Shown: positions 36,687-55,709 of the stretch, in pieces
Numbering within the stretch: position 1 is the first letter of the stretch
Layout: every line of letters starts with the position of its first letter
Origin: Ignavibacteriota bacterium
Lineage (GTDB): Bacteria > Bacteroidota > Ignavibacteria > Tepidaquicellales > Tepidaquicellaceae
Direction: 5' to 3'
Assembly: GCA_016218085.1 (NCBI GenBank)
Contig: JACREY010000003.1
Location: 1-64,000 of the forward strand
DNA length: 64,000 nt
The notes under the pieces: generated by a model
Told to the model about the DNA's origin: nothing
What the model saw: the letters and a program-made list of their open reading frames with translations, nothing else
Database searches by the model: none
Position numbers and translations under genes: made by a program

Positions 36687-36877
36687 TTATTTTTTTACAA
36701 TTTTTTCAATTCTTTTGATTTTCTGTAACTCCTTTACAGAAAGGCATTCCGACAGTTTTTCATTTAGTTTATAATTTTAACAACCACCTACCGGCGGTCG
36801 GAAACCAGCATAAACACTGATTTTTTTCTTTCAATGTCAATATTTTTCATATTAGTTTTTATTTACCATAATTTTGT

Positions 36878-38041
36878 ATGGAAGTTAAAATTAAAATAAG
36901 TGATATGAAAATAGCAGACAGAATAAAAAACATTTTCGGGAAAGCCGAAAAAAAGAATTTTGAAAGCGGATGGCACTCCCTGACCGAATATTTAAATAAC
37001 TGGGGAGGCGAGTCCTATAAATCGTACACGTTTGCCTGTATCAATGCAAGAGCAGAAAATATATCCAAGGCAGGTATATTCCTTTATAAAAGGACAGGAA
37101 ACGGTGAGCAAAAAGAAGTAAAGAATCACGAGTTCCTTTCTCTAATAGCAAAGCCGAATAAAAGGAATCAGACTTTCAAGGAAATACTACATAAGATATC
37201 GACGTCTCTTGATTTATATGGAAATGCTTATGTTTTCATACACAGGGGATTAAAGAACAAGCCGCTCGGTCTTTACCACCTGCCTTCGAACAATATCAAG
37301 ATTAACATGAACAAGGGCATGACGGAAATAGAGAGTTATGATCATTACACAGACCAGGGAATCGTGAAATACAAACCCAAAGATATTATACATTTTCTGA
37401 TTCCCGATCCAGACTCGAACATTTACGGTAAATCAACCGTATCGGGATTTAATTTCACTTTAGAAATAGATTATCTGCAGAATCTTTACCAGAGAAACTT
37501 TTACAAAAATGATGCGGCAATAGGGATGCTTCTGGAATCCGATAGCATTTTGCCTGATGACAAATACGAGAGATACGTGAACCAGTTCAAGCAAACATAT
37601 GAAGGAGCTGTTAATTCGGGAAAAACGCTGCTTCTCGAAGGCGGAATAAAAGCAAAACCATATCAGGCATTCCCAAAAGATGTAGAGATACTCCCCTCCC
37701 GCAAACTGATACGCGATGAAATAATGACACTATTCAGGGTGCCGAAGGTAATTCTCGGTATTACAGATGATGTAAACAGGGCAAATTCGAGAGAATCCAT
37801 TAAGATTTTCAATGATTATGTAATAAAACCATTTGCGAAAATAAATATTGAGAGCAAGCTAAACATTTTTCTCAAGAACAACTATGAAGAAGAAAATCTT
37901 TTTCTTTCGCTTGAGTATGATTTTGAAATAGACAGGGACCTGCAGTTGAAAGCTTATGAAATTTACAGGAAGTACGACATTGCATCAGTGAACGAAATCA
38001 GGGAGATGGAAGGCTTTGGGCAAATATCAAATAATAAATAA
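36878..38041 (+). CDS. HK97-type phage portal protein
   Basis: A 387-residue portal protein, the dodecameric channel at one vertex of a phage head through which DNA passes. Typical features of the HK97 gp3 family are seen: 'SYTFACINARAENISK' near residue 55, 'LDLYGNAYVFIHRG' near 112, 'KPKDIIHFLIPDPD', and near the C-terminus 'LFRVPKVILGITDDVNRANS' (the 'ppxllG' segment). The length is near normal. It opens a plus-strand operon of capsid genes; no terminase gene precedes it. The first ATG lies directly after TAATTTTG, a -7-like element, so the real start could be Met10 at 36905. The C-terminus is coded by the low-complexity motif around 38030-38055. Confidence 0.92.
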   Translation: MEVKIKISDMKIADRIKNIFGKAEKKNFESGWHSLTEYLNNWGGESYKSYTFACINARAENISKAGIFLYKRTGNGEQKEVKNHEFLSLIAKPNKRNQTFKEILHKISTSLDLYGNAYVFIHRGLKNKPLGLYHLPSNNIKINMNKGMTEIESYDHYTDQGIVKYKPKDIIHFLIPDPDSNIYGKSTVSGFNFTLEIDYLQNLYQRNFYKNDAAIGMLLESDSILPDDKYERYVNQFKQTYEGAVNSGKTLLLEGGIKAKPYQAFPKDVEILPSRKLIRDEIMTLFRVPKVILGITDDVNRANSRESIKIFNDYVIKPFAKINIESKLNIFLKNNYEEENLFLSLEYDFEIDRDLQLKAYEIYRKYDIASVNEIREMEGFGQISNNK

Positions 38042-38075
38042 CAAATAGCAAATAATTAATTTAAAATAAAAAGTG

Positions 38076-38729
38076 ATGGAATACAAAAATTTTATTATAA
38101 CTGAGAAATCGTTTAACGACAAGGATATGACAATCACCCATTACATATCCACGGTGACACCGGACAGGTTCGGAGATATAGTCAATCCATTCGGAATGGA
38201 TGCAGATAACTTCAGGAAGAATCCGATTGTACTTTTCGGGCACAGTCACAATGCAAGAACCAATATAATCGGTAAAAATATATTGCTTGCACCTGATGAT
38301 TTCGGAGTGAAGGCAATGACTAAATTTGCAGACACTTCCGCAGGTAAAGATATATACAATCTTAACAAGGAAGGATACCTGAATGCATGGTCAATAGGAT
38401 TCATTCCGAAGAAGACTAAAATCCAGAATACAACTGTAAACAATCAGCCCGGGACTTACAACATAATTGATGAATGGGAGCTACTAGAATATTCTTCGGT
38501 TGCTATACCTGCAAATCCAGATGCACTGAACCTGATGTATAAGGAGATAAAATCACCTGAAATACTTCATGAAATTAATTTTGCACTTATTAGAAGCGAA
38601 CTTGACTCATACAAAGTATCTGCAAAGGAACTTTCTGTAAATCTTGAGAAGCTTGAGGAAAAAACCGCAAAGAAGCTGAAAGAAATTATAAATTTAATCC
38701 GAAGAAACCGGATGCAGAAATGCAATTAA
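38076..38729 (+). CDS. HK97 family prohead protease
   Basis: A prohead protease of peptidase family U35, about 217 residues. It trims the delta domain of the capsid protein during head maturation. The catalytic pair is visible: His in 'VLFGHSHN' (about residue 56) and Ser in 'NAWSIGF' (about 106). 'YISTVTPDRFGDIVNPFGMD' is the family's opening segment. The start may be GTG at 38073 or ATG at 38076; the ATG is preferred. The C-terminal 50 residues are Lys/Glu-rich and predicted helical, as in relatives with a scaffold-like tail. The gene lies between portal and capsid genes, the standard order. Confidence 0.92.
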   Translation: MEYKNFIITEKSFNDKDMTITHYISTVTPDRFGDIVNPFGMDADNFRKNPIVLFGHSHNARTNIIGKNILLAPDDFGVKAMTKFADTSAGKDIYNLNKEGYLNAWSIGFIPKKTKIQNTTVNNQPGTYNIIDEWELLEYSSVAIPANPDALNLMYKEIKSPEILHEINFALIRSELDSYKVSAKELSVNLEKLEEKTAKKLKEIINLIRRNRMQKCN

Positions 38730-38767
38730 AAAAAAACTAAAATAAACTCAAAAGAAAGGATTTAAAA

Positions 38768-39928
38768 ATGGAAAAAGAGACAAAAAAGCTGGAAGATGTA
38801 ACCATTCCTGATGAAAATGATGAAACAAAAATCGAAAGGATTTCGAAAAAAGTAGCCGAAGATGTAGTTAAAAAGGAACTGGACGAGATCAACAAGAACA
38901 TTTCCGGCATTCCGACGGAGCAGTTCCGTTCAGTGGAAAACAAGGAAGACCCTTTCGTTCAAGAAGGAAGAAATATCATCAAGGGTATTATTTACAACCG
39001 TCCCGAATTATTTTCGGAGAGATATAAAAGCTTCTTGAATGAATCATCGGGGGCAAGCGGAGGTTACCTGGTGCCACAGGAATGGTACAAACAGATACTG
39101 AAGTTCGTGACCGAATCGGGTGTTGTAAGAAAAAATGCAACTGTATTAAACATGAGCAGGAAGGAGCTTGCAATTCCAAAGCTCGACAGACTTCCTTCTT
39201 TCTCATTTGTCACGGAAGGTTCGATGAAACCTGTAAGTAATCCGACTTTTGCCCAGGTCGTGCTTTCGAGAAAAGACGGAGGATTCATAGTGATTTTCTC
39301 GAAACAGTTAATCGAAGATGAGGCGTTTGACATTATGGGTTTTGTATCCAGGCTTGCCGCACAAATCATCAGCAGAACCGAAGACCTTGCCGGGTTCAAG
39401 GGCATTACTGATAAAATTGACGGACTTTTCACAAGCGGAATCGGTGCTACGGAAATCGAAATTGACGGAACTGCATTCAACAGTATAAAGTATGATGATA
39501 TTATCAAGATGGTTTCAGCAGTGCCGTCAGAAACACTTGGCAGGGCAAAATGGTACATGCACAGGACAATATACGGGATGCTGAGGGCAATGAAATACGA
39601 CGGCTCGCAGGAATACATTATTTCTCCGGATGAGAGAAAGAACAACCTTCTCGAAGGATATCCGGTCGTATTAACTGACCAAACTTACTCTTTATCAGAG
39701 GATTTACCAAACAGGGCATTCATCGGATTCGGAGATCTGCAGTATATGATACTGGGAACAAGAAATTCTCTGAGCATAGATTACTCAAAGGATGCAACGG
39801 TTGATATGGGAAGCGGACAAACTGTAAACTTATGGCAAAACGGACTTGTAGGATTAAATTTCGGAGCTTCTTTCGATATTAAATTCTCATTCCCGTCTGC
39901 ACTTGCAGTTGCAAAGACAAAAAGTTAA
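38768..39928 (+). CDS. HK97-fold phage major capsid protein
   Basis: A 386-residue major capsid protein. Residues 1 to about 85 are charged and helical and match the delta (scaffolding) domain that the neighbouring protease removes. The mature part begins around 'SSGASGGYLVPQEWY' and shows HK97-fold segments: 'LNMSRKELAIPKLD', 'VLSRKDGGFIVIFSKQLIED', 'GDLQYMILGTRNSLSID'. The family is known to form icosahedral heads. The ATG is preceded by AAAGGA. A GC-rich hairpin follows at 39948-39974, typical of a strongly expressed capsid gene. No stop, frameshift or truncation is seen. Confidence 0.93.
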   Translation: MEKETKKLEDVTIPDENDETKIERISKKVAEDVVKKELDEINKNISGIPTEQFRSVENKEDPFVQEGRNIIKGIIYNRPELFSERYKSFLNESSGASGGYLVPQEWYKQILKFVTESGVVRKNATVLNMSRKELAIPKLDRLPSFSFVTEGSMKPVSNPTFAQVVLSRKDGGFIVIFSKQLIEDEAFDIMGFVSRLAAQIISRTEDLAGFKGITDKIDGLFTSGIGATEIEIDGTAFNSIKYDDIIKMVSAVPSETLGRAKWYMHRTIYGMLRAMKYDGSQEYIISPDERKNNLLEGYPVVLTDQTYSLSEDLPNRAFIGFGDLQYMILGTRNSLSIDYSKDATVDMGSGQTVNLWQNGLVGLNFGASFDIKFSFPSALAVAKTKS

Positions 39929-39947
39929 AAAACATTTTTAAAACAAA

Positions 39948-39974
39948 AACCCGTCCGCATTGACCGGGCGGGTT
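39948..39974 (+). terminator. hairpin after the capsid gene
   Basis: AACCCG-T-CCG and CGG-G-CGGGTT form a 10-pair stem (one T-G pair) with a 7-base loop. There is no T-run, so it may attenuate read-through or protect the capsid mRNA rather than stop transcription fully. It lies 17 bases before the connector gene. Confidence 0.6.
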
Positions 39975-39990
39975 AATAAATATATTTGAA

Positions 39991-40614
39991 ATGATAAACT
40001 TAGATGATTTAAAATACTATCTTAATATAAACGATGGCACGCAGGATGAATTCCTTTTGAAATTGATAGATATGGCAGTTGAAAGGATTAACAACCTATG
40101 CAGAAGAAGCATTAATTACGGTGTCAGATTCGATGTAAAAGACGGAAACGGACAGAATTTAATCTGGTTAAAAGATTATCCTGTCGAAAAAATAACGGCA
40201 ATAAAATACAGGAAAGAAACAGGTTCGTTCGACCACGATTTATTTCCTGATGGTAATATAGAAGGCAACATTTACCTGGACAAGAAAACCGGTAAGCTAT
40301 TATTGCTCAATAATTATGTACTTCCCAACGGTGCTTCCAACGTGCAAATCAGATACTATTCTGGATACATGGATAATGCACCCGATCCCGTGAACGAAAC
40401 ACCGAAAGATTTGAAATCGATTGCACTTCTTATGAGTGCAGAATTATTTCTTAAAAGTTTTCAGAATGCAGGCGAAGAGATTACCAGGAGACTTGGACTT
40501 CTGCATTTCGAACACGTAATAAAAGGAAACGACAACGAATCAAGGAGGGATTTTACATACAAAGATGAAGACTACGAAAATCTTTTAGAAAAATACAAAT
40601 CATTAAAAGTCTGA
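39991..40614 (+). CDS. phage head-tail connector protein (gp6-like)
   Basis: A 207-residue protein of the HK97 gp6/SPP1 gp15-like head completion family. The N-terminal helix 'MINLDDLKYYLNI' and 'FLLKLIDMAVERINNLC' are typical ('eel K..L ..d..D..l..li..A...ie'). In phages it forms a ring under the portal that joins head and tail. Here no stopper or tail gene follows; the next ORF starts 1 base later and codes a small membrane protein. About 100 residues longer than minimal gp6 proteins, with a beta-rich middle part as in Gram-positive phage relatives. Confidence 0.85.
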   Translation: MINLDDLKYYLNINDGTQDEFLLKLIDMAVERINNLCRRSINYGVRFDVKDGNGQNLIWLKDYPVEKITAIKYRKETGSFDHDLFPDGNIEGNIYLDKKTGKLLLLNNYVLPNGASNVQIRYYSGYMDNAPDPVNETPKDLKSIALLMSAELFLKSFQNAGEEITRRLGLLHFEHVIKGNDNESRRDFTYKDEDYENLLEKYKSLKV

Positions 40615-40615
40615 T

Positions 40616-40831
40616 ATGGATATAACAAACGGCAATACAAAAATTTCGTTTTACATTTCAGAATTCCTGAAATGGACGCTTGAAGTTGTAATCATAGTAG
40701 GTACAGCTGTTGCCTTGTATTACAATCTTACCAACGAATTCAACCTGATGAAATCAGATATGATAAGACTGAACAAGGAATTCGAAGAAATGAAAACAGA
40801 ATTCAGAATACACTTAAAGGAGAAAAGATGA
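40616..40831 (+). CDS. small membrane protein with coiled coil, phage lysis region
   Basis: A 71-residue protein with one membrane helix (about residues 19-38) followed by a charged coiled-coil tail rich in Glu and Lys ('MKSDMIRLNKEFEEMKTEF'). The ATG begins 1 base after the connector stop codon, and its own stop overlaps the next start (ATGA). By size, shape and position it resembles small accessory lysis proteins or holin partners (XhlA-like in general plan), but there is no diagnostic motif. Confidence 0.75.
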   Translation: MDITNGNTKISFYISEFLKWTLEVVIIVGTAVALYYNLTNEFNLMKSDMIRLNKEFEEMKTEFRIHLKEKR

Positions 40832-41064
40832 GGCAATTTTTTATTGAAGGCAACGAATACTCGATGATGCGGCTGCTTTCGTTTTTAAGCGTTTGCGCTG
40901 CAATAATAATATCCGGTTTTGCCGTGTTTTTGATTTTCCGGAAAGCCGATATCACATACATTAGGGAAGCGATTCTTCTTTCGGGGACTCTTCTTGGATT
41001 CGGTTTTGGCGGAAAAGCAGCACAGAAATTCGGTGAGAAATCAATCGGCAGAGGAGACAGTTAA
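40828..41064 (+). CDS. putative holin, two membrane helices
   Basis: A 78-residue protein with two hydrophobic helices (about residues 16-36 and 45-62) and a charged, basic C-terminus, the plan of class II phage holins. The ribosome site AAAGGAG lies in the end of the previous gene, and the ATGA overlap couples the two. It sits three genes before the M15 endolysin, consistent with a lysis cassette. The holin call is by topology and position, not sequence family. Confidence 0.65.
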   Translation: MRQFFIEGNEYSMMRLLSFLSVCAAIIISGFAVFLIFRKADITYIREAILLSGTLLGFGFGGKAAQKFGEKSIGRGDS

Positions 41065-41685
41065 ATGGAAATACTTAAAAAATATTATTTGATTCTGTGT
41101 TTATTATTAATCATAATATCAGGAATAATATATTCTATTTACAGATATTCCCGGAAACCTCAGGATAGCGGAACAAAAATTATCCATGATACTACCCTGC
41201 TTACCAGATATGAAAAAGAAATAAAGAAGGACACTGTTATAAAATGGCATGAAAGAATAGTACAGAAAAAATCCGAGCCTGAAACAATTTATTATCAGAG
41301 AATAGATACTGTATTCACGGAAAAAGTCCTGAATTACGACCTGATGCTGCAGGTTAATAAGGATGATGATAAACTGATTATTAAAGCTGTAAATAATGAA
41401 GGCAGGATATTGAAAGAGTATATTTATGATAATGTATATGATAATTTTTCTGTTAAATCGCAAAAAAATAATTTATTTGTAAAGTCATCGAAATTTAAAT
41501 GGAGCGGAATAAACGCAGCACTGAATATTAAATACCCTATCGGCAAATCTGTTAAACCTGATTACCAGCCGGGCATTGAAACGGGTATAAATATCATTAA
41601 CAAGCTGGACCTTAGTGCATCGCTAAATTATTCTACTTCAGACAATCAATTTTTTTTTAAAACAGGGATTAAAATAAAATTTTAG
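41065..41685 (+). CDS. membrane-anchored protein of the lysis region
   Basis: A 206-residue protein with an N-terminal membrane helix (about residues 7-27) and a long periplasmic part. Residues 35-130 are charged, with a coiled-coil-like stretch around 'RYEKEIKKDTVIKWHERI'; the C-terminal 70 residues look beta-rich. It starts directly after the holin-like gene and ends 3 bases before the endolysin ATG. Position suggests an inner-membrane spanin-like or phage structural-accessory role, but this is a guess; similar proteins in Bacteroidota phages are annotated only as hypothetical. Confidence 0.7.
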   Translation: MEILKKYYLILCLLLIIISGIIYSIYRYSRKPQDSGTKIIHDTTLLTRYEKEIKKDTVIKWHERIVQKKSEPETIYYQRIDTVFTEKVLNYDLMLQVNKDDDKLIIKAVNNEGRILKEYIYDNVYDNFSVKSQKNNLFVKSSKFKWSGINAALNIKYPIGKSVKPDYQPGIETGINIINKLDLSASLNYSTSDNQFFFKTGIKIKF

Positions 41686-41688
41686 AAA

Positions 41689-42135
41689 ATGAAATTTGAA
41701 AATATCTGCATACATTACAATAATATAATAAGACAATCAGATGAATACGATTCGGTGAAGCCTATCAGGAATACTGATTTGCTTTTGCCAGAATTTTACA
41801 ATACTCTTGTTTTTTGCTTTAATGAGTACCAGAAAAAATACCCAAGTCAGAGAGCGTACATCACCGAATCATACAGAAGTAACTCTTTGCAACTGAAATA
41901 TTATAAGACAGGAAAAAGCAAAATCAGGAAAAACGGGATGCACCATTACGGTATAGCTGCTGACGTAGCTTTTATTATAAACGATAAATTAAGTTACAAG
42001 GGCGATTACAATTACCTGAGAAAAATATTTAAAGAGAATAATCTGACTGTACTTGACTGGGAACTGGGGCATGTACAGTTCATACCGGTTTCAGAACAAA
42101 GTGCATTGAGAGAAGAGATTGAAAATAGTGTTTAG
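41689..42135 (+). CDS. M15 family peptidase (endolysin-like)
   Basis: A 148-residue zinc peptidase of family M15 (VanY/L-Ala-D-Glu or D,D-carboxypeptidase type), the common endolysin fold of Bacteroidota phages. The zinc site is intact: His85 and Asp92 in 'HHYGIAAD', and His128 with catalytic Glu125 in 'WELGHVQF'. There is no signal peptide, so it would need the holin-like protein to reach peptidoglycan. It ends the plus-strand phage-like operon; a convergent methyltransferase gene begins 80 bases later. Confidence 0.9.
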   Translation: MKFENICIHYNNIIRQSDEYDSVKPIRNTDLLLPEFYNTLVFCFNEYQKKYPSQRAYITESYRSNSLQLKYYKTGKSKIRKNGMHHYGIAADVAFIINDKLSYKGDYNYLRKIFKENNLTVLDWELGHVQFIPVSEQSALREEIENSV

Positions 42136-50443: not shown

Positions 50444-50965
50444 TTAAATCAGCTTTTTCGACATGAGGAAAACCTTGAGCCAGTTATATTTCATTCTCTC
50501 TGACCTTTTAAGTTTGATGATTTTATATTCATTCCACACCGGATTATTATAGTCATAGTTTATATAGCTTTTAAGCAAAGCTTCGAAATCCTTTATGTCA
50601 GTGCTGTATGTTTTCACACCGATTTTTCCTTCTGCTTCCAGTTTCCTCAAAGCAAGATTATGCGGCTCGTTATTCAGGAAATTTTTGTCCCTGTGAAGAA
50701 TCCTGTAATTATTGCTATTAATTTTTCTGAAGGCAGATGCAATCAGTTTATGCACGTGCACGCCTTCCTTTATTTTATTTTTATAAACATAAACGGAAAG
50801 ATACCGGGAATACGGGAGTCTGTATTCCGCAATCTGTCTGAAAGCTTCCCCTCCTTTTTGCTTTCTGTATATCCTTCCGTTTTTGTATGCATAATAACCG
50901 GCATATCCCGGAATTTTCCTCATTTGTTTTTTATCAAATGTCTCCATCCTAAAAAAATTTATCAT
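50444..50965 (-). CDS. phage-type NUMOD4/HNH endonuclease
   Basis: A 173-residue protein with a NUMOD4-like opening ('IPGYAGYYAYKNGRIYRKQ') and a HNH_3-type core: 'VHVHKLIASAFRKI', 'ILHRDKNFLNNEPHNLAL'. Members are phage or intron-type nucleases, often beside terminase genes, and may nick DNA at packaging or homing sites. The catalytic His and Asn positions of the core appear kept. The start may be Met7 at 50947, which has AGG just before it. It follows the 207-residue phage-like gene by 10 bases and shares its promoter. Confidence 0.8.
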   Translation of the reverse strand: MINFFRMETFDKKQMRKIPGYAGYYAYKNGRIYRKQKGGEAFRQIAEYRLPYSRYLSVYVYKNKIKEGVHVHKLIASAFRKINSNNYRILHRDKNFLNNEPHNLALRKLEAEGKIGVKTYSTDIKDFEALLKSYINYDYNNPVWNEYKIIKLKRSERMKYNWLKVFLMSKKLI

Positions 50966-50975
50966 TGATAAATAT

Positions 50976-51599
50976 TCAGTTTACGGCTGCATCTTGAGTA
51001 AAGAATTCGGATGTTCCGCTTGCCATTAAAACAGCTCCTACGAATGCCCTTTTTTGCGCTACTTTTTGTATAATATTCTTCAAAGAAAGCACCTCAGGGT
51101 TTTCCTTTCTCTCCATCCAAACCCATTTATCCTCTGATTTCTTCCACTTTCCGAGTCCTTCAGCTTTCAAAATTCCAATTTTCTTTCTGTCGGGTATTCC
51201 TGATGCAGGCTTAAATACATATCTGAATTTAGCCTCCTTACTGTTTGCATTACCATCGCATATTCCGAGCTTTACCCCGGTCTTTGAAGTTATCACACAT
51301 TTGTAAGTATAGTCAATAAATCCTTTTTGCACATCTACGGTTTCTTTAATGCAGTCAAGTCTTTCAACCTGAAGGTTAAAAGCCCTCCTAATTTTTTCAG
51401 CGCCGGGTTTCAGAAGTGCGGGTTTTTTTGTGCCAAGGATAAGACCGTAATCAATATTTACTTTAAGAATTTCCCTGCCAAACTCCTCCATAATTCTGTA
51501 CCATTTTTTCATTTCCGAAACCGGAACCAAATCAATTCCGTTAAATGTTGTTTCGGAATCCGCTGATTTATTATAATTTTCCAAGTGAATTTTTTCCAT
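50976..51599 (-). CDS. phage-associated protein of unknown function
   Basis: A 207-residue cytoplasmic protein. Segments such as 'YGLILGTKKPALLKPGAEKI' and 'KVAQKRAFVGAVLMASGTSE' with 'FFTQDAAV' are, from memory, hallmarks of a family common in prophages and plasmids and usually annotated as hypothetical; a DNA-metabolism role has been suggested by context. The gene is first of a two-gene unit with the HNH nuclease and is driven by the promoter at 51628-51656. AAAGGGG precedes the ATG. Family membership would need a profile search. Confidence 0.7.
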   Translation of the reverse strand: MEKIHLENYNKSADSETTFNGIDLVPVSEMKKWYRIMEEFGREILKVNIDYGLILGTKKPALLKPGAEKIRRAFNLQVERLDCIKETVDVQKGFIDYTYKCVITSKTGVKLGICDGNANSKEAKFRYVFKPASGIPDRKKIGILKAEGLGKWKKSEDKWVWMERKENPEVLSLKNIIQKVAQKRAFVGAVLMASGTSEFFTQDAAVN

Positions 51600-51627
51600 A
51601 AAATACCCCTTTCTTTTTTTTATTTAC

Positions 51628-51680
51628 AAGTTAACCTAATTAGATAATATTGTCAAGGATAATTTTATCTAATTAGATTA
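51628..51680 (-). promoter_or_regulatory. promoter with paired palindromic operators
   Basis: On the minus strand TTGACA (51656-51651) and TAACTT (51633-51628) are spaced by 17 bases, a good vegetative-type promoter for the 207-residue gene 29 bases further on. One CTAATTAG palindrome (51636-51643) lies in the spacer. A second, longer one, ATCTAATTAGAT (51667-51678), lies 11 bases upstream of the -35. The centres are 33 bases apart, about three helical turns. This is the layout of a repressor-controlled, phage-like promoter. No repressor gene is adjacent. Confidence 0.72.
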
Positions 51681-51875
51681 TTTAATAATTGGAGGGGAGA
51701 GGGTAGAACTACATATATTATTGTTATTTCATATTGTTATTAGTGTTTACAACAGGATAAAATATTTTAATAAATGCAATTGCATCAAAGATATTTTCGC
51801 TACAAGTGCCCGGTTGAATGTTGTTGATAATAAAATATATTCGCTGATAGAATTACATTACAAATAGAAGGGTAT

Positions 51876-54800
51876 TTATTTTTCGATAGCTTCCTGAATT
51901 ACTTTTATCAGATTTTCTTTTGTGAATGGTTTGGATAGATAGTGCGTACAGCCATTGCGGATAAACTCTTCCTTGTCGCCGACCATAGCATATGCAGTAA
52001 CTGCAACGATAGGAATATTTTCATAGCCGGGGATTGTGCGCATTGCCTGAGCGGTTTCTATTCCGCTAATACCTCTGAGGTTTATATCCATTAAAACAAG
52101 ATCAAACTTTTCTCTTTTAGCCAGTTGAAGTGCAGATTCACCATCTTCCAGGCTCGTTACATTGCAGTCTTTTTTAAGAAGAACTTTCACTACTTTTCTG
52201 CCCAGCATATCATCTTCCACATGAAGTATATTCGGAATGGATTCGAATATTCTGCTTCTTTCAACCGTCAAGGTTTTTTCTATACAGCCGTTCCCGTTTT
52301 CACTTTCATCGGCAGGGAGCAAGACTGTAAAAACAGAACCTTTGCTTATTTTACTTTCAACAGTAAGGACTCCTCCCATCAGTTCTACGAATTTTTTTGA
52401 AATTGTAAGACCGAGTCCCGTTCCTTCATATTTCCTGTCAAGCCCTTCGCTTACCTGCCTGAAAGGCTCGAAAATCCTTTCTATATCTTTCGGCAGTATT
52501 CCTATTCCTGTATCCTTGACTTTTACAAACGTATAATCGCCGTCATCCGAATGGTGTCTGCCGCAAAGAACTTTTATCTCACCTGCTTCTGTAAATTTAA
52601 TCGCATTATTAATAAGATTATTCAGCACCTGTATAAAAAGTCTCTCGTCAATTCTAGTTTTCGGAGTATCCTTATCGGGAAGGAATTTTACAAAAACGCC
52701 TTTCTGGTTTGCAGAAAGTTCAAACAGCTTTATTGAATCCTTTATTAGTTCGATAATATTTTTCTTTTGAATCTTAATATTTATCTTATTCGCCTCAATG
52801 CTTGATAAATCGAGTATAGAATTCAGAGTATCAGTAAGTCTCAAACCGCCTTTCAGAATCATTCCTGCCATTTCCTTGAGTTCAGGTTCCAGGAGTTCAT
52901 TGTGCATAAGTTCTGCAAATCCGAGAATACCGGTCATAGGTGTTCTCAGCTCGTGGCTCATATTCGCAAGGAAATTTGATTTCAGGCGGCTGGCTTCTTC
53001 TGCGCGCTCTTTCGCTATCCTTAATTCCTCTTCAGTTTGTTTGCGTTTTGTAATATCCTCTTTCACGGATAGGAGATGTGTTGTTTCCCCTTTATCATTT
53101 TTTATGGGTGACATCACGGCAAATTCCCAGTATATCTCTCCGGTTTTTTTCTGAATAGGAACTTCTCCGCTCCACTCCCCTTTTTCACGAAGAATTTCCC
53201 AGAGCCTGTCGTCTTCCTCTTCCCACATATCCGGAGGTCTGAGTTTTCTTATGTCTTTACCGATAAGTTCTTCCACACTGTAGCCGCAGGATTCCGTAAA
53301 TTTAGGATTAACGAATTCGATAATTCCGCTCATATCCGTAATAGCTATAGAAATAAAACTGTGCTGGATACCGCTGGAAAGTTTCCTGATTAGCTCTTCT
53401 TTTTCAAAAAACTCCAATGCATAATTAAGGTTGGAAGCGAGTTCATCAAAAAGCTGGATTTCATTATATTTGAAAGTATCCACCTCTCCGGAATATATCG
53501 CAAGCACTCCGAACGGTTTTCCAAGGGAGCGGATTGCAAATGCTGCAAGAGAATTAAGTCCGTTTTCCAGAGCGAGTTTGCGCCAGGGCGGGTCAGGTAT
53601 TTTATATTCCAGGTCAATATTATTGCAGATTGAATTTTTCCCGCTTTTAAGTGTAATTATAACCGGACCAACTATATTATCGTTGGAATTTGCATTAAAG
53701 CTAAGGTGGTCAATGTAATCAGTTTTACTTCCGAATTTTGATTTAATTTCCAGATTGCCCGAAGTTTCATTCACAAGCCCGATCCACGCCATTTTATATT
53801 TACCGTCTTCAACAATGACTCTGCACACTTCATTAAAGAGGTCTTCCGAATTTCTGAACCTGACAATTGCGTGATTAACATTGCTCAGCACCCTGTATAT
53901 TTTTGTCAACTGTTCGATTTTTCTTTCTTTAATTTTTCTTTCCGTTACATCACGGGCAACAAGTATGACTTTTTCATCGGCGAGCGGTGAAAGAGATGCT
54001 TCGAACCATTTGATTCTTCCTTTTACGGATAGTGAATACTCGACATTAATTGTTTTTCTGGATTTAAAAACAATATCAAAATAGCTCTGGAAGAGTTCGG
54101 CTTGCTTTTGCGGAATTGTATCGTATAATTTTTTTCCGATAAGCTCTTCAGGGGATTTATAAAGCAGATCGACATTTGTCGGACCGATTTTTACAATTCT
54201 GCTTTCATTATCCAGAACAATTATTACATCTTTCATTGAAGCAAAAAGGGCTCTTAATTCAGATTCCGATTCAACAATCTTTTTTTCGGCTTCTTTTCTT
54301 TCAGTTATATCCCTTATAATGCTCTGAAAGTACTTTACTCCTTCAATTTCTATTATTCTAACACTGTTTTCGATTGTAAAAGAGATTCCGTTTTTCTTTA
54401 CGTGCTCAATCTCTAAAACTTTTTCACCTGTTTTGATAATTTCATCGATATCCTCGGTGTAATTTTTCAGCGATTCTTTGGAGCGCAGATTATACCCGTA
54501 CATATTCAGAAATTCTTGCTCAGTGTATCCATAAAGGCTTTTTGCTTTTTCATTAACTTCAATAATCTTTCCATCCATATTTACAAGCATTATTGCATCG
54601 CTTGCATACTTAATCATATAGTTAAAATGCTTTGTTAGCGCTTCGCGCTGCAGCTGGTAGGCATATTGCGTTTTATAGTATTTAAATTTCTGATGCCTCC
54701 ACAGAGCAAGCAGCAGAATGCCCTGAAGCAAAATAATGACAAAGATTAAAACAGTTATTAAACCTGCTCTTTCCTTTATTCCCGAATAAATTTCGTTTTT

Positions 54801-55709
54801 ATCCACTTTCACAATCATTATCCAGCCGTGAATTAATATCGGTTTGATGAATGAAAGGACTTCCGTTTTTCTGAAATCAGTGCCTTCGTAAATGCCCGTT
54901 CCGCCATTTACGGCAAAAGATGTTATAAGGTTAGTATCTTCAACCGGCTCTTTTAACTTTAGCGATGTATTTTTTTCATTTCGCAAATCATTTAGATAAA
55001 CAGATTGATTTCCTACTTTTTTAATCAATATGGTTTCAGAGCTGGTGCTTGCAGTTGGCCAGGATTGAAGTGTCGGAAACAAAAACTTATTTGGATTGAT
55101 TTCAAAGACTAAAAATCCGTAAACAGAATTTTCACTTTTTAATTTTTCAACCAGAGGAACTATTAAATAAAGCCCGGTTTTTCCTGAGACAGAGTCGATA
55201 ATCCTGAAATCTGTTAATACGCTTTTTCCATTGATGTAATTCTCGGCAATATTTTCAGGTAAAGAATTCAATTTGAAATTACCGGGGAGAAAAAATACCG
55301 GTTTACTGTTTTTATCCAAAAGTACTACGCTCTCGTAATCATAGAGCTCGAGCATTTTATTCAGCCAGAGTTCAACATTTTCTTTTGAACCCTTACTTTT
55401 GCCGTTTAATATTTTTATTATCTCATCCAGAATGAGCGGATTTTGGGAAATCAGATCTCCGTCATTTAACCTTTCCTTTTGCCAGGTTATGATTTCAACC
55501 GCTTTCAGGTTGGCTATAGCAGAGAGCTCGCTTTGCTTTTCGGTTTTTATTCTGTCTCGTTGAGAGTGATAGTATAATGTACCCAAATACCAGACTACAA
55601 GTGAAAGGAGTATAAATACTGATATCAGCATCCACGGTAATTTACCCGAAGAGCTTTTATTAAAGTGAGTCAATTTATCCGGATTGAACGAGAATTTTGA
55701 ATCTATCAC
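51876..55709 (-). CDS. hybrid sensor histidine kinase/response regulator
   Basis: A 1277-residue membrane sensor kinase. A membrane helix near 28-48 and another near 318-340 enclose a periplasmic Cache-like sensor. Then come PAS ('DAIMLVNMDGKIIEVN', about 360-480), a second PAS ('DVIIVLDNESRIVKIG', about 485-600), a GAF domain (about 620-775), a third PAS ('FVNPKFTESCGYSVEE', about 785-900), HisKA with 'SHELRTPMTGILGF' (His near 920), HATPase_c with 'GTGLGLTISKKFVELMGG', and a receiver domain with phospho-acceptor Asp in 'LVLMDINLRG' (near 1205) and 'VAVTAYAM'. The start codon is GTG with no clear ribosome site. No output regulator is adjacent, so its target is unknown. Confidence 0.93.
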   Translation of the reverse strand: MIDSKFSFNPDKLTHFNKSSSGKLPWMLISVFILLSLVVWYLGTLYYHSQRDRIKTEKQSELSAIANLKAVEIITWQKERLNDGDLISQNPLILDEIIKILNGKSKGSKENVELWLNKMLELYDYESVVLLDKNSKPVFFLPGNFKLNSLPENIAENYINGKSVLTDFRIIDSVSGKTGLYLIVPLVEKLKSENSVYGFLVFEINPNKFLFPTLQSWPTASTSSETILIKKVGNQSVYLNDLRNEKNTSLKLKEPVEDTNLITSFAVNGGTGIYEGTDFRKTEVLSFIKPILIHGWIMIVKVDKNEIYSGIKERAGLITVLIFVIILLQGILLLALWRHQKFKYYKTQYAYQLQREALTKHFNYMIKYASDAIMLVNMDGKIIEVNEKAKSLYGYTEQEFLNMYGYNLRSKESLKNYTEDIDEIIKTGEKVLEIEHVKKNGISFTIENSVRIIEIEGVKYFQSIIRDITERKEAEKKIVESESELRALFASMKDVIIVLDNESRIVKIGPTNVDLLYKSPEELIGKKLYDTIPQKQAELFQSYFDIVFKSRKTINVEYSLSVKGRIKWFEASLSPLADEKVILVARDVTERKIKERKIEQLTKIYRVLSNVNHAIVRFRNSEDLFNEVCRVIVEDGKYKMAWIGLVNETSGNLEIKSKFGSKTDYIDHLSFNANSNDNIVGPVIITLKSGKNSICNNIDLEYKIPDPPWRKLALENGLNSLAAFAIRSLGKPFGVLAIYSGEVDTFKYNEIQLFDELASNLNYALEFFEKEELIRKLSSGIQHSFISIAITDMSGIIEFVNPKFTESCGYSVEELIGKDIRKLRPPDMWEEEDDRLWEILREKGEWSGEVPIQKKTGEIYWEFAVMSPIKNDKGETTHLLSVKEDITKRKQTEEELRIAKERAEEASRLKSNFLANMSHELRTPMTGILGFAELMHNELLEPELKEMAGMILKGGLRLTDTLNSILDLSSIEANKINIKIQKKNIIELIKDSIKLFELSANQKGVFVKFLPDKDTPKTRIDERLFIQVLNNLINNAIKFTEAGEIKVLCGRHHSDDGDYTFVKVKDTGIGILPKDIERIFEPFRQVSEGLDRKYEGTGLGLTISKKFVELMGGVLTVESKISKGSVFTVLLPADESENGNGCIEKTLTVERSRIFESIPNILHVEDDMLGRKVVKVLLKKDCNVTSLEDGESALQLAKREKFDLVLMDINLRGISGIETAQAMRTIPGYENIPIVAVTAYAMVGDKEEFIRNGCTHYLSKPFTKENLIKVIQEAIEK

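Follow-up and report, generated by a model that had tools for sequence, protein, structure and literature searches.

A candidate GTA-like phage packaging system divided between two apparently co-regulated loci in an Ignavibacteria family

Gene transfer agents (GTAs) are encoded by dispersed, vertically inherited, remnant-like gene clusters (PMC9662315, PMC11841831). Their similarity to broken prophages and their scatter across the genome make them hard to recognize (PMC11841831). BhGTA/VSH-1 of Brachyspira hyodysenteriae (Brachygtaviriformidae) has a single conserved terL outside its structural cluster and has co-diversified with its host (PMC9662315). FpGTA I/II of Faecalibacterium is encoded in two operons ~125 kb apart, with packaging and head genes apart from lysis genes, and its particles are ~40 nm with no identifiable tail (PMC12946183). 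The accessory genes of RcGTA in Rhodobacter capsulatus are found at several loci (PMC11841831). Capsid-forming PICIs (cf-PICIs) carry capsid genes of their own (PMC10803314), and their interaction partners include diverse phage tails (PMC13345588). Among the papers searched, none mentions both "gene transfer agent" and "Ignavibacteria."

We analyzed a head-and-lysis cassette in a 64,000-nucleotide stretch of DNA (the window; contig JACREY010000003.1 of assembly GCA_016218085.1) from an Ignavibacteriota bacterium, whose genome is labeled G000 among 29 genomes of the same family. The GTAs of Brachyspira and Faecalibacterium are the known systems closest to it. As in BhGTA, a structural gene cluster is present and terL lies outside it; however, BhGTA is a characterized gene-transfer particle, whereas the system described here is a candidate, has no tail genes found, and keeps TerL in an operon of its own with a promoter element common to the head operon. 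The two-operon split is shared with FpGTA. In FpGTA, TerS/TerL are located beside the portal and capsid genes and the second operon has tail-fiber/baseplate genes, whereas here the terminase is separate, the lysis genes are with the head genes, and no tail parts were found; the host phylum is also unrelated. The head-tail cluster of RcGTA includes the terminase and the tail. RcGTA likewise has an HK97-type head, and its portal was the closest solved structure in a profile comparison (6te8/6tba, E 2.9e-16), but this distant match is no evidence of common domestication. In contrast to cf-PICIs, which are ~14-kb mobile self-packaging islands, no integrase was seen, the loci are unlinked, and inheritance appears to be vertical.

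Head-and-lysis cassette and its distribution in the family

An earlier note on this DNA had described eight intact plus-strand genes, which was correct at positions 36878-42135, and five of them were assigned to families (Table 1). In the prohead protease, H59 and S107 were invariant in an alignment of seven sequences, and a protease-capsid fusion is present in several relatives. Homologues of the major capsid protein were 44 to 84% identical. The three open reading frames between the connector and endolysin genes showed one strong predicted transmembrane (TM) segment each and no convincing family; position and topology suggest that holin and spanin roles are found among them. The first has homologues in G008 (71%) and G009 (79%), the second has a GFGFGGK motif conserved in an alignment of six, and homologues of the third occupy the matching place in relatives. 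The endolysin residues H85, H86, D92, E125, and H128 were invariant in six relatives. An M15 endolysin with a conserved site beside small TM genes corresponds to the lysis module expected of a GTA, and the head and packaging genes are likewise Caudoviricete-derived and resident in the host genome.

Table 1. Features of the head-and-lysis cassette and its promoter in the window
Feature	Coordinates	Strand	Basis or remark
Promoter: element AATGTCAATATTTTTCAT (36833-36850), -7 box TAATTTTG (36869-36876)	36833..36876	+	Upstream of portal
Portal protein, 387 aa	36878..38041	+	PF04860 1.9e-57
S78 prohead protease, 218 aa	38073..38729	+	PF04586 4e-15
HK97-fold major capsid protein with N-terminal delta-type domain, 386 aa	38768..39928	+	PF05065 8.4e-39
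gp6-type head connector/adaptor, 207 aa	39991..40614	+	PF05135 3.5e-8, phrog_442 6e-14
Small one-TM protein with charged C-terminus, putative holin/lysis accessory	40616..40831	+	One predicted TM
Small membrane protein, likely holin	40828..41064	+	Hydrophobicity and position
Putative spanin-like protein, N-terminal TM and long extracytoplasmic region	41065..41685	+	TM prediction
M15-type endolysin, 148 aa	41689..42135	+	phrog_465 2.3e-6, weaker than head-gene matches

A capsid protein search followed by capsid and portal profiles recovered the cassette in 11 of the 29 same-family genomes (G000, G002, G004, G005, G008, G009, G019 with two copies, G021, G022, G027, and G028). The gene order recurs among these relatives, and the cassette is therefore no chance stretch. 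The flanks, where read, consisted of host genes, including those for Por_Secre_tail proteins, a histidine kinase, and PmbA/TldD. No tail or integrase genes were present in the flanks read, with contig ends cutting several carriers. The earlier note had advised looking in relatives for the same gene order at the same locus; an identical chromosomal site is firm only within genus g3, in which the flanking genes are conserved. An S8-peptidase anchor was rejected as a mark of one shared site; it is multi-copy, and G000 and G021 are the only genomes in which it lies near the cassette. Window positions 50444-55709 encode a histidine kinase and two neighbors whose homologues are located no more than a few kilobases from the cassette in genus g3, which suggests that the chromosomal neighborhood is partly common across genera.

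The named database records of relatives were all Ignavibacteria/Bacteroidota MAGs, the complete chromosome CP054675.1 among them. Close portals were confined to this family among 245 genomes of the class. The more distant ones include that of a G186 prophage, in which a separate terminase is also present and the downstream genes are arranged as in ordinary phages, and portal identity to named phages reached ~27% at most. The frames of head genes were broken in two of the 11 carriers. The frameshifts, in the G009 portal (L018:2313-3417) and the G008 capsid (L026:4642-5777), are both in fen MAGs and may be either assembly errors or real losses. In G019 (L019, L023, and L051), the head cassette is present twice, and the genome encodes at least two close TerLs. 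One of the cassettes has its portal gene in inverted orientation and carries an inserted gene for an AAA_14/DUF4143 ATPase; the connector of the other is followed by a Schlafen-type AlbA_2 gene.

Unlinked terminase operon and common promoter element

The terminase is not missing but is encoded apart from the head genes. In G000, a 408-aa TerL is encoded at C4:39041-40264 (PF04466 2.8e-46, PF17288 2.2e-10). Together with a 131-aa open reading frame of TerS size directly upstream, it forms a free-standing operon (C4:38644-40267) on a different contig from the cassette. The earlier report of no terminase, tail, or integrase thus held for the DNA adjoining the cassette but not, as to the terminase, for the genome. 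Its statement that nothing packages DNA was wrong, since every carrier has a TerL operon that is unlinked to the cassette, co-inherited with it, and apparently co-regulated. The PF03354 and PF17289 profiles had no match in G000, and relying on them would have backed the wrong conclusion of no terminase; phrog_2 detected TerL in 11 of 11 genomes tested. The Walker A motif (GGAGSGKS), the acidic EEAT, and the nuclease residues D258, D311, D382, and D386 were invariant in 11 orthologues. The operon is surrounded by host genes (NAT, metallophosphatase, nitroreductase, and Sua5 in G000; RmuC in g3). In the complete genome of G021, ~540 kb separate TerL (97 kb) from the cassette (~634 kb); the two are ~11 kb apart in G004, and one TerL copy of G019 is ~3 kb from the portal gene.

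The assignment of the 131-aa gene as TerS is weak. Its product had no Pfam or PHROG match. A TerS lacking a DNA-binding domain would be expected of a GTA; the AlphaFold model of this product (pLDDT 77) has four helices with non-significant fold matches only, some of them named TerS. In G005 (L046:8471-8547) and G002 (L045:5515-5589), the terminase promoter is kept and leads straight into TerL; no TerS open reading frame was seen beside TerL in these two genomes, in contrast to G004 of the same genus.

The common promoter is the most telling evidence for tying the two loci together. The 18-mer AATGTCAATATTTTTCAT also precedes the TerS-size gene on C4 (L041:9575, plus strand) at near-identical spacing to the -7 box, which in the G000 promoters is of the Bacteroidota type TAnnTTTG. 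In 2.05 Mb (about 62%) of G000, the exact 18-mer occurred only at the portal and terminase promoters, as did the element plus box at 23 to 28 nt; widening the spacing to 22 to 30 nt added one further site with no open reading frame behind it, and the element was not seen at a third operon. In the background test, for which G000 was used, this promoter pair scored above all 142 background upstream comparisons. A weaker promoter-like site on C7 (L230:282), without a -7 box and upstream of a secreted protein, was dismissed as chance. A matching pair was found in eight of eight genomes examined with both loci, with a weak match between the loci of G008, and the counts outside G000 are partly circular because those patterns were read off these same promoters. 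The element varies by genus and matches within each genome (TGTCAATAT in g1, GGTCATTT in g3, and ATATTTGA in g13), and the whole promoter unit spans 41 to 43 nt in g1, g3, and g5 and 36 to 37 nt in g13 as scanned. The head and terminase operons are apparently switched by the same promoter type and co-regulated. The element common to two unlinked loci suggests that these dispersed genes answer to a common control, as those of GTAs do.

The two loci also occur together. Both were present in 11 of the 29 family genomes, the head alone in none, TerL alone in one (G023, without a detected head cassette), and neither in 17 (Fisher 3.5e-7); by genus, the same four counts were 7, 0, 0, and 9 (p = 8.7e-5), and both p-values are optimistic because the genomes are related. 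Portal and TerL distances were correlated across nine genomes (r=0.86, Mantel p=1e-4). The two trees agreed in placing G002 and G005 with G004, G000 with G008, and G021 with G022, and both recovered the groups g1/g5, g3, and g13. In a 48-sequence tree, the family TerLs (12 plus the second copy of G019) formed one group with 100/100 support, and 35 virus and prophage TerLs fell outside it. The portal and TerL trees, the Mantel test, and the TerL clade apart from phages point to vertical transmission and co-diversification with the host, as would be expected of a GTA.

The pS values of the portal, protease/capsid, connector, TerL, and endolysin genes were 0.57 to 0.91, which is near saturation, versus pN values of 0.04 to 0.2, and the flanking host genes showed a comparable pattern. 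The TerS-size and spanin-like genes evolved faster. Because dS was saturated, no numerical value was placed on the per-gene dN/dS ratios. The low pN against saturated synonymous divergence indicates that the head cassette and TerL are under purifying selection, in agreement with the selection claimed for the cassette earlier.

GTA-like reading and its alternatives

We consider it likely that these genes are a vertically inherited, domesticated GTA-like phage packaging system split over two co-regulated loci. The earlier suggestion of a domesticated, GTA-like element gained support from the recurrence of the cassette flanked by host genes and from congruent descent. The system would work much as BhGTA and FpGTA do, and we regard it as a GTA-like candidate, not a proven member, whose arrangement and host group are both new. 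The lack of a detected tail, the weak TerS, the frameshifts in G009 and G008, and the TerL without a head in G023 are points against this reading.

A decaying prophage remnant, split through rearrangement and kept by chance, would account for the lack of tail, integrase, and replication genes, for the G009 and G008 frameshifts and the rearranged copy in G019, and for the absence of the cassette from the majority of the family genomes. Relaxed selection and mostly broken frames would be expected of it, but pN was far below pS under selection like that on the flanking host genes, with saturated dS, and only two of 11 carriers had broken frames. The catalytic residues are invariant, and two unlinked loci were kept together with promoters that match yet are genus-specific; a remnant is accordingly improbable. 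The patchy distribution, and heads and a terminase of its own without tails, would also suit a capsid-forming satellite that borrows helper-phage tails to move its own DNA; cf-PICIs likewise produce capsids themselves (PMC10803314) and exploit the tails of phages (PMC13345588). However, an integrase and a self-packaging island would then be expected. No integrase was seen in the flanking open reading frames, and with packaging genes unlinked by up to ~540 kb, as in G021, there is no single mobile unit. The congruent portal and TerL trees and the shared flanking genes within genus g3 also speak against a satellite, which we regard as unlikely.

The genes may instead serve as an anti-phage weapon, in which head, terminase, and lysis genes expressed upon infection poison phage assembly or kill the cell. 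Host-encoded capsid parts in known satellites can interfere with phages, the lysis genes share the head operon, and in G029 an extra cassette adjoins a Mu-like phage genome. We give this explanation little credence: a complete, catalytically intact packaging set exceeds the needs of interference, no defense function was shown nearby, and the ~20 to 40% portal/capsid identity to most related phages makes co-assembly doubtful. The HK97 fold is also common to encapsulins, but a protein-cargo compartment with an encapsulin-like shell is very unlikely, because the portal, connector, protease, and co-regulated terminase, needless for a protein shell, are retained; an encapsulin would be a shell without portal or terminase and with a cargo enzyme. 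Both the protein-cargo capsid and the plain remnant offered by the earlier note are made unlikely by the unlinked, co-inherited TerL operon in every carrier.

A tail for delivery is usual in GTAs. Profiles for the tape measure (PF10145), Neck1/tail completion (phrog_5), and the sheath (PF04984) gave no meaningful match in 12 genomes, with controls matching, and tail proteins of related phages used as queries found nothing in 2.05 Mb of G000. The absence of a tail claimed earlier is plausible and stands within reach of these three families and the related-phage tail proteins; the searches leave room for divergent or podovirus-type tails. The tail may be missing, too divergent for detection, or borrowed. 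A separate prophage in G004 had a weak PHROG tape-measure match that was missed by PF10145, indicating limited sensitivity to the tails of this clade.

In the GTA-like system, one regulator would fire the head and terminase promoters in some cells. The portal, capsid, and protease would produce a mature head, the terminase would thread DNA via the portal by headful packaging, and the connector would cap the DNA-filled head. The packaged DNA would most likely be that of the host because no replication or excision genes were seen. The holin, spanin, and M15 endolysin would lyse the cell and release the DNA-filled heads. The DNA might then enter a recipient through a tail that is encoded at an undetected locus or borrowed from a phage, or might not be injected at all. 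We propose only tentatively a minimal tail-less GTA, whose whole regulon would be two operons (terminase; head plus lysis) and whose DNA-filled heads would be released by lysis without a tail of their own; delivery of the DNA, if any, would then depend on a borrowed tail or on uptake machinery. The scattered parts were joined via co-occurrence, co-evolution, and the promoter, with no reliance on similarity to known GTAs, and this recipe is usable elsewhere. It also makes testable whether, and why, a bacterium can maintain a terminase-equipped, tail-less head with lysis genes.

Head cassettes were also observed in G012 and G029. G012 has a much more divergent one (C343, L027; 25% for the capsid and 44% for the protease) in the vicinity of efflux/MFS genes and a 41% TerL on another contig (C18, L050), and is possibly a second, older example of the split arrangement. 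The cassette in G029 (IMGVR_UViG_3300050581_000215; L148 and L149) comprises portal-protease/capsid-connector genes at L149:7090-11709 on the minus strand and could be cargo or host DNA adjoining a Mu-like prophage. G029 was rejected as a tail-bearing parental phage: its Mu-like phage (Portal_Mu 6e-65, Mu-like_Pro) has its own portal and protease and merely adjoins the cassette, and its tail is thus no evidence for the window cassette. The G029 cassette was 60% (portal), 51% (capsid), and 44% (connector) identical to that of the window, and its endolysin is Amidase_2, not M15.
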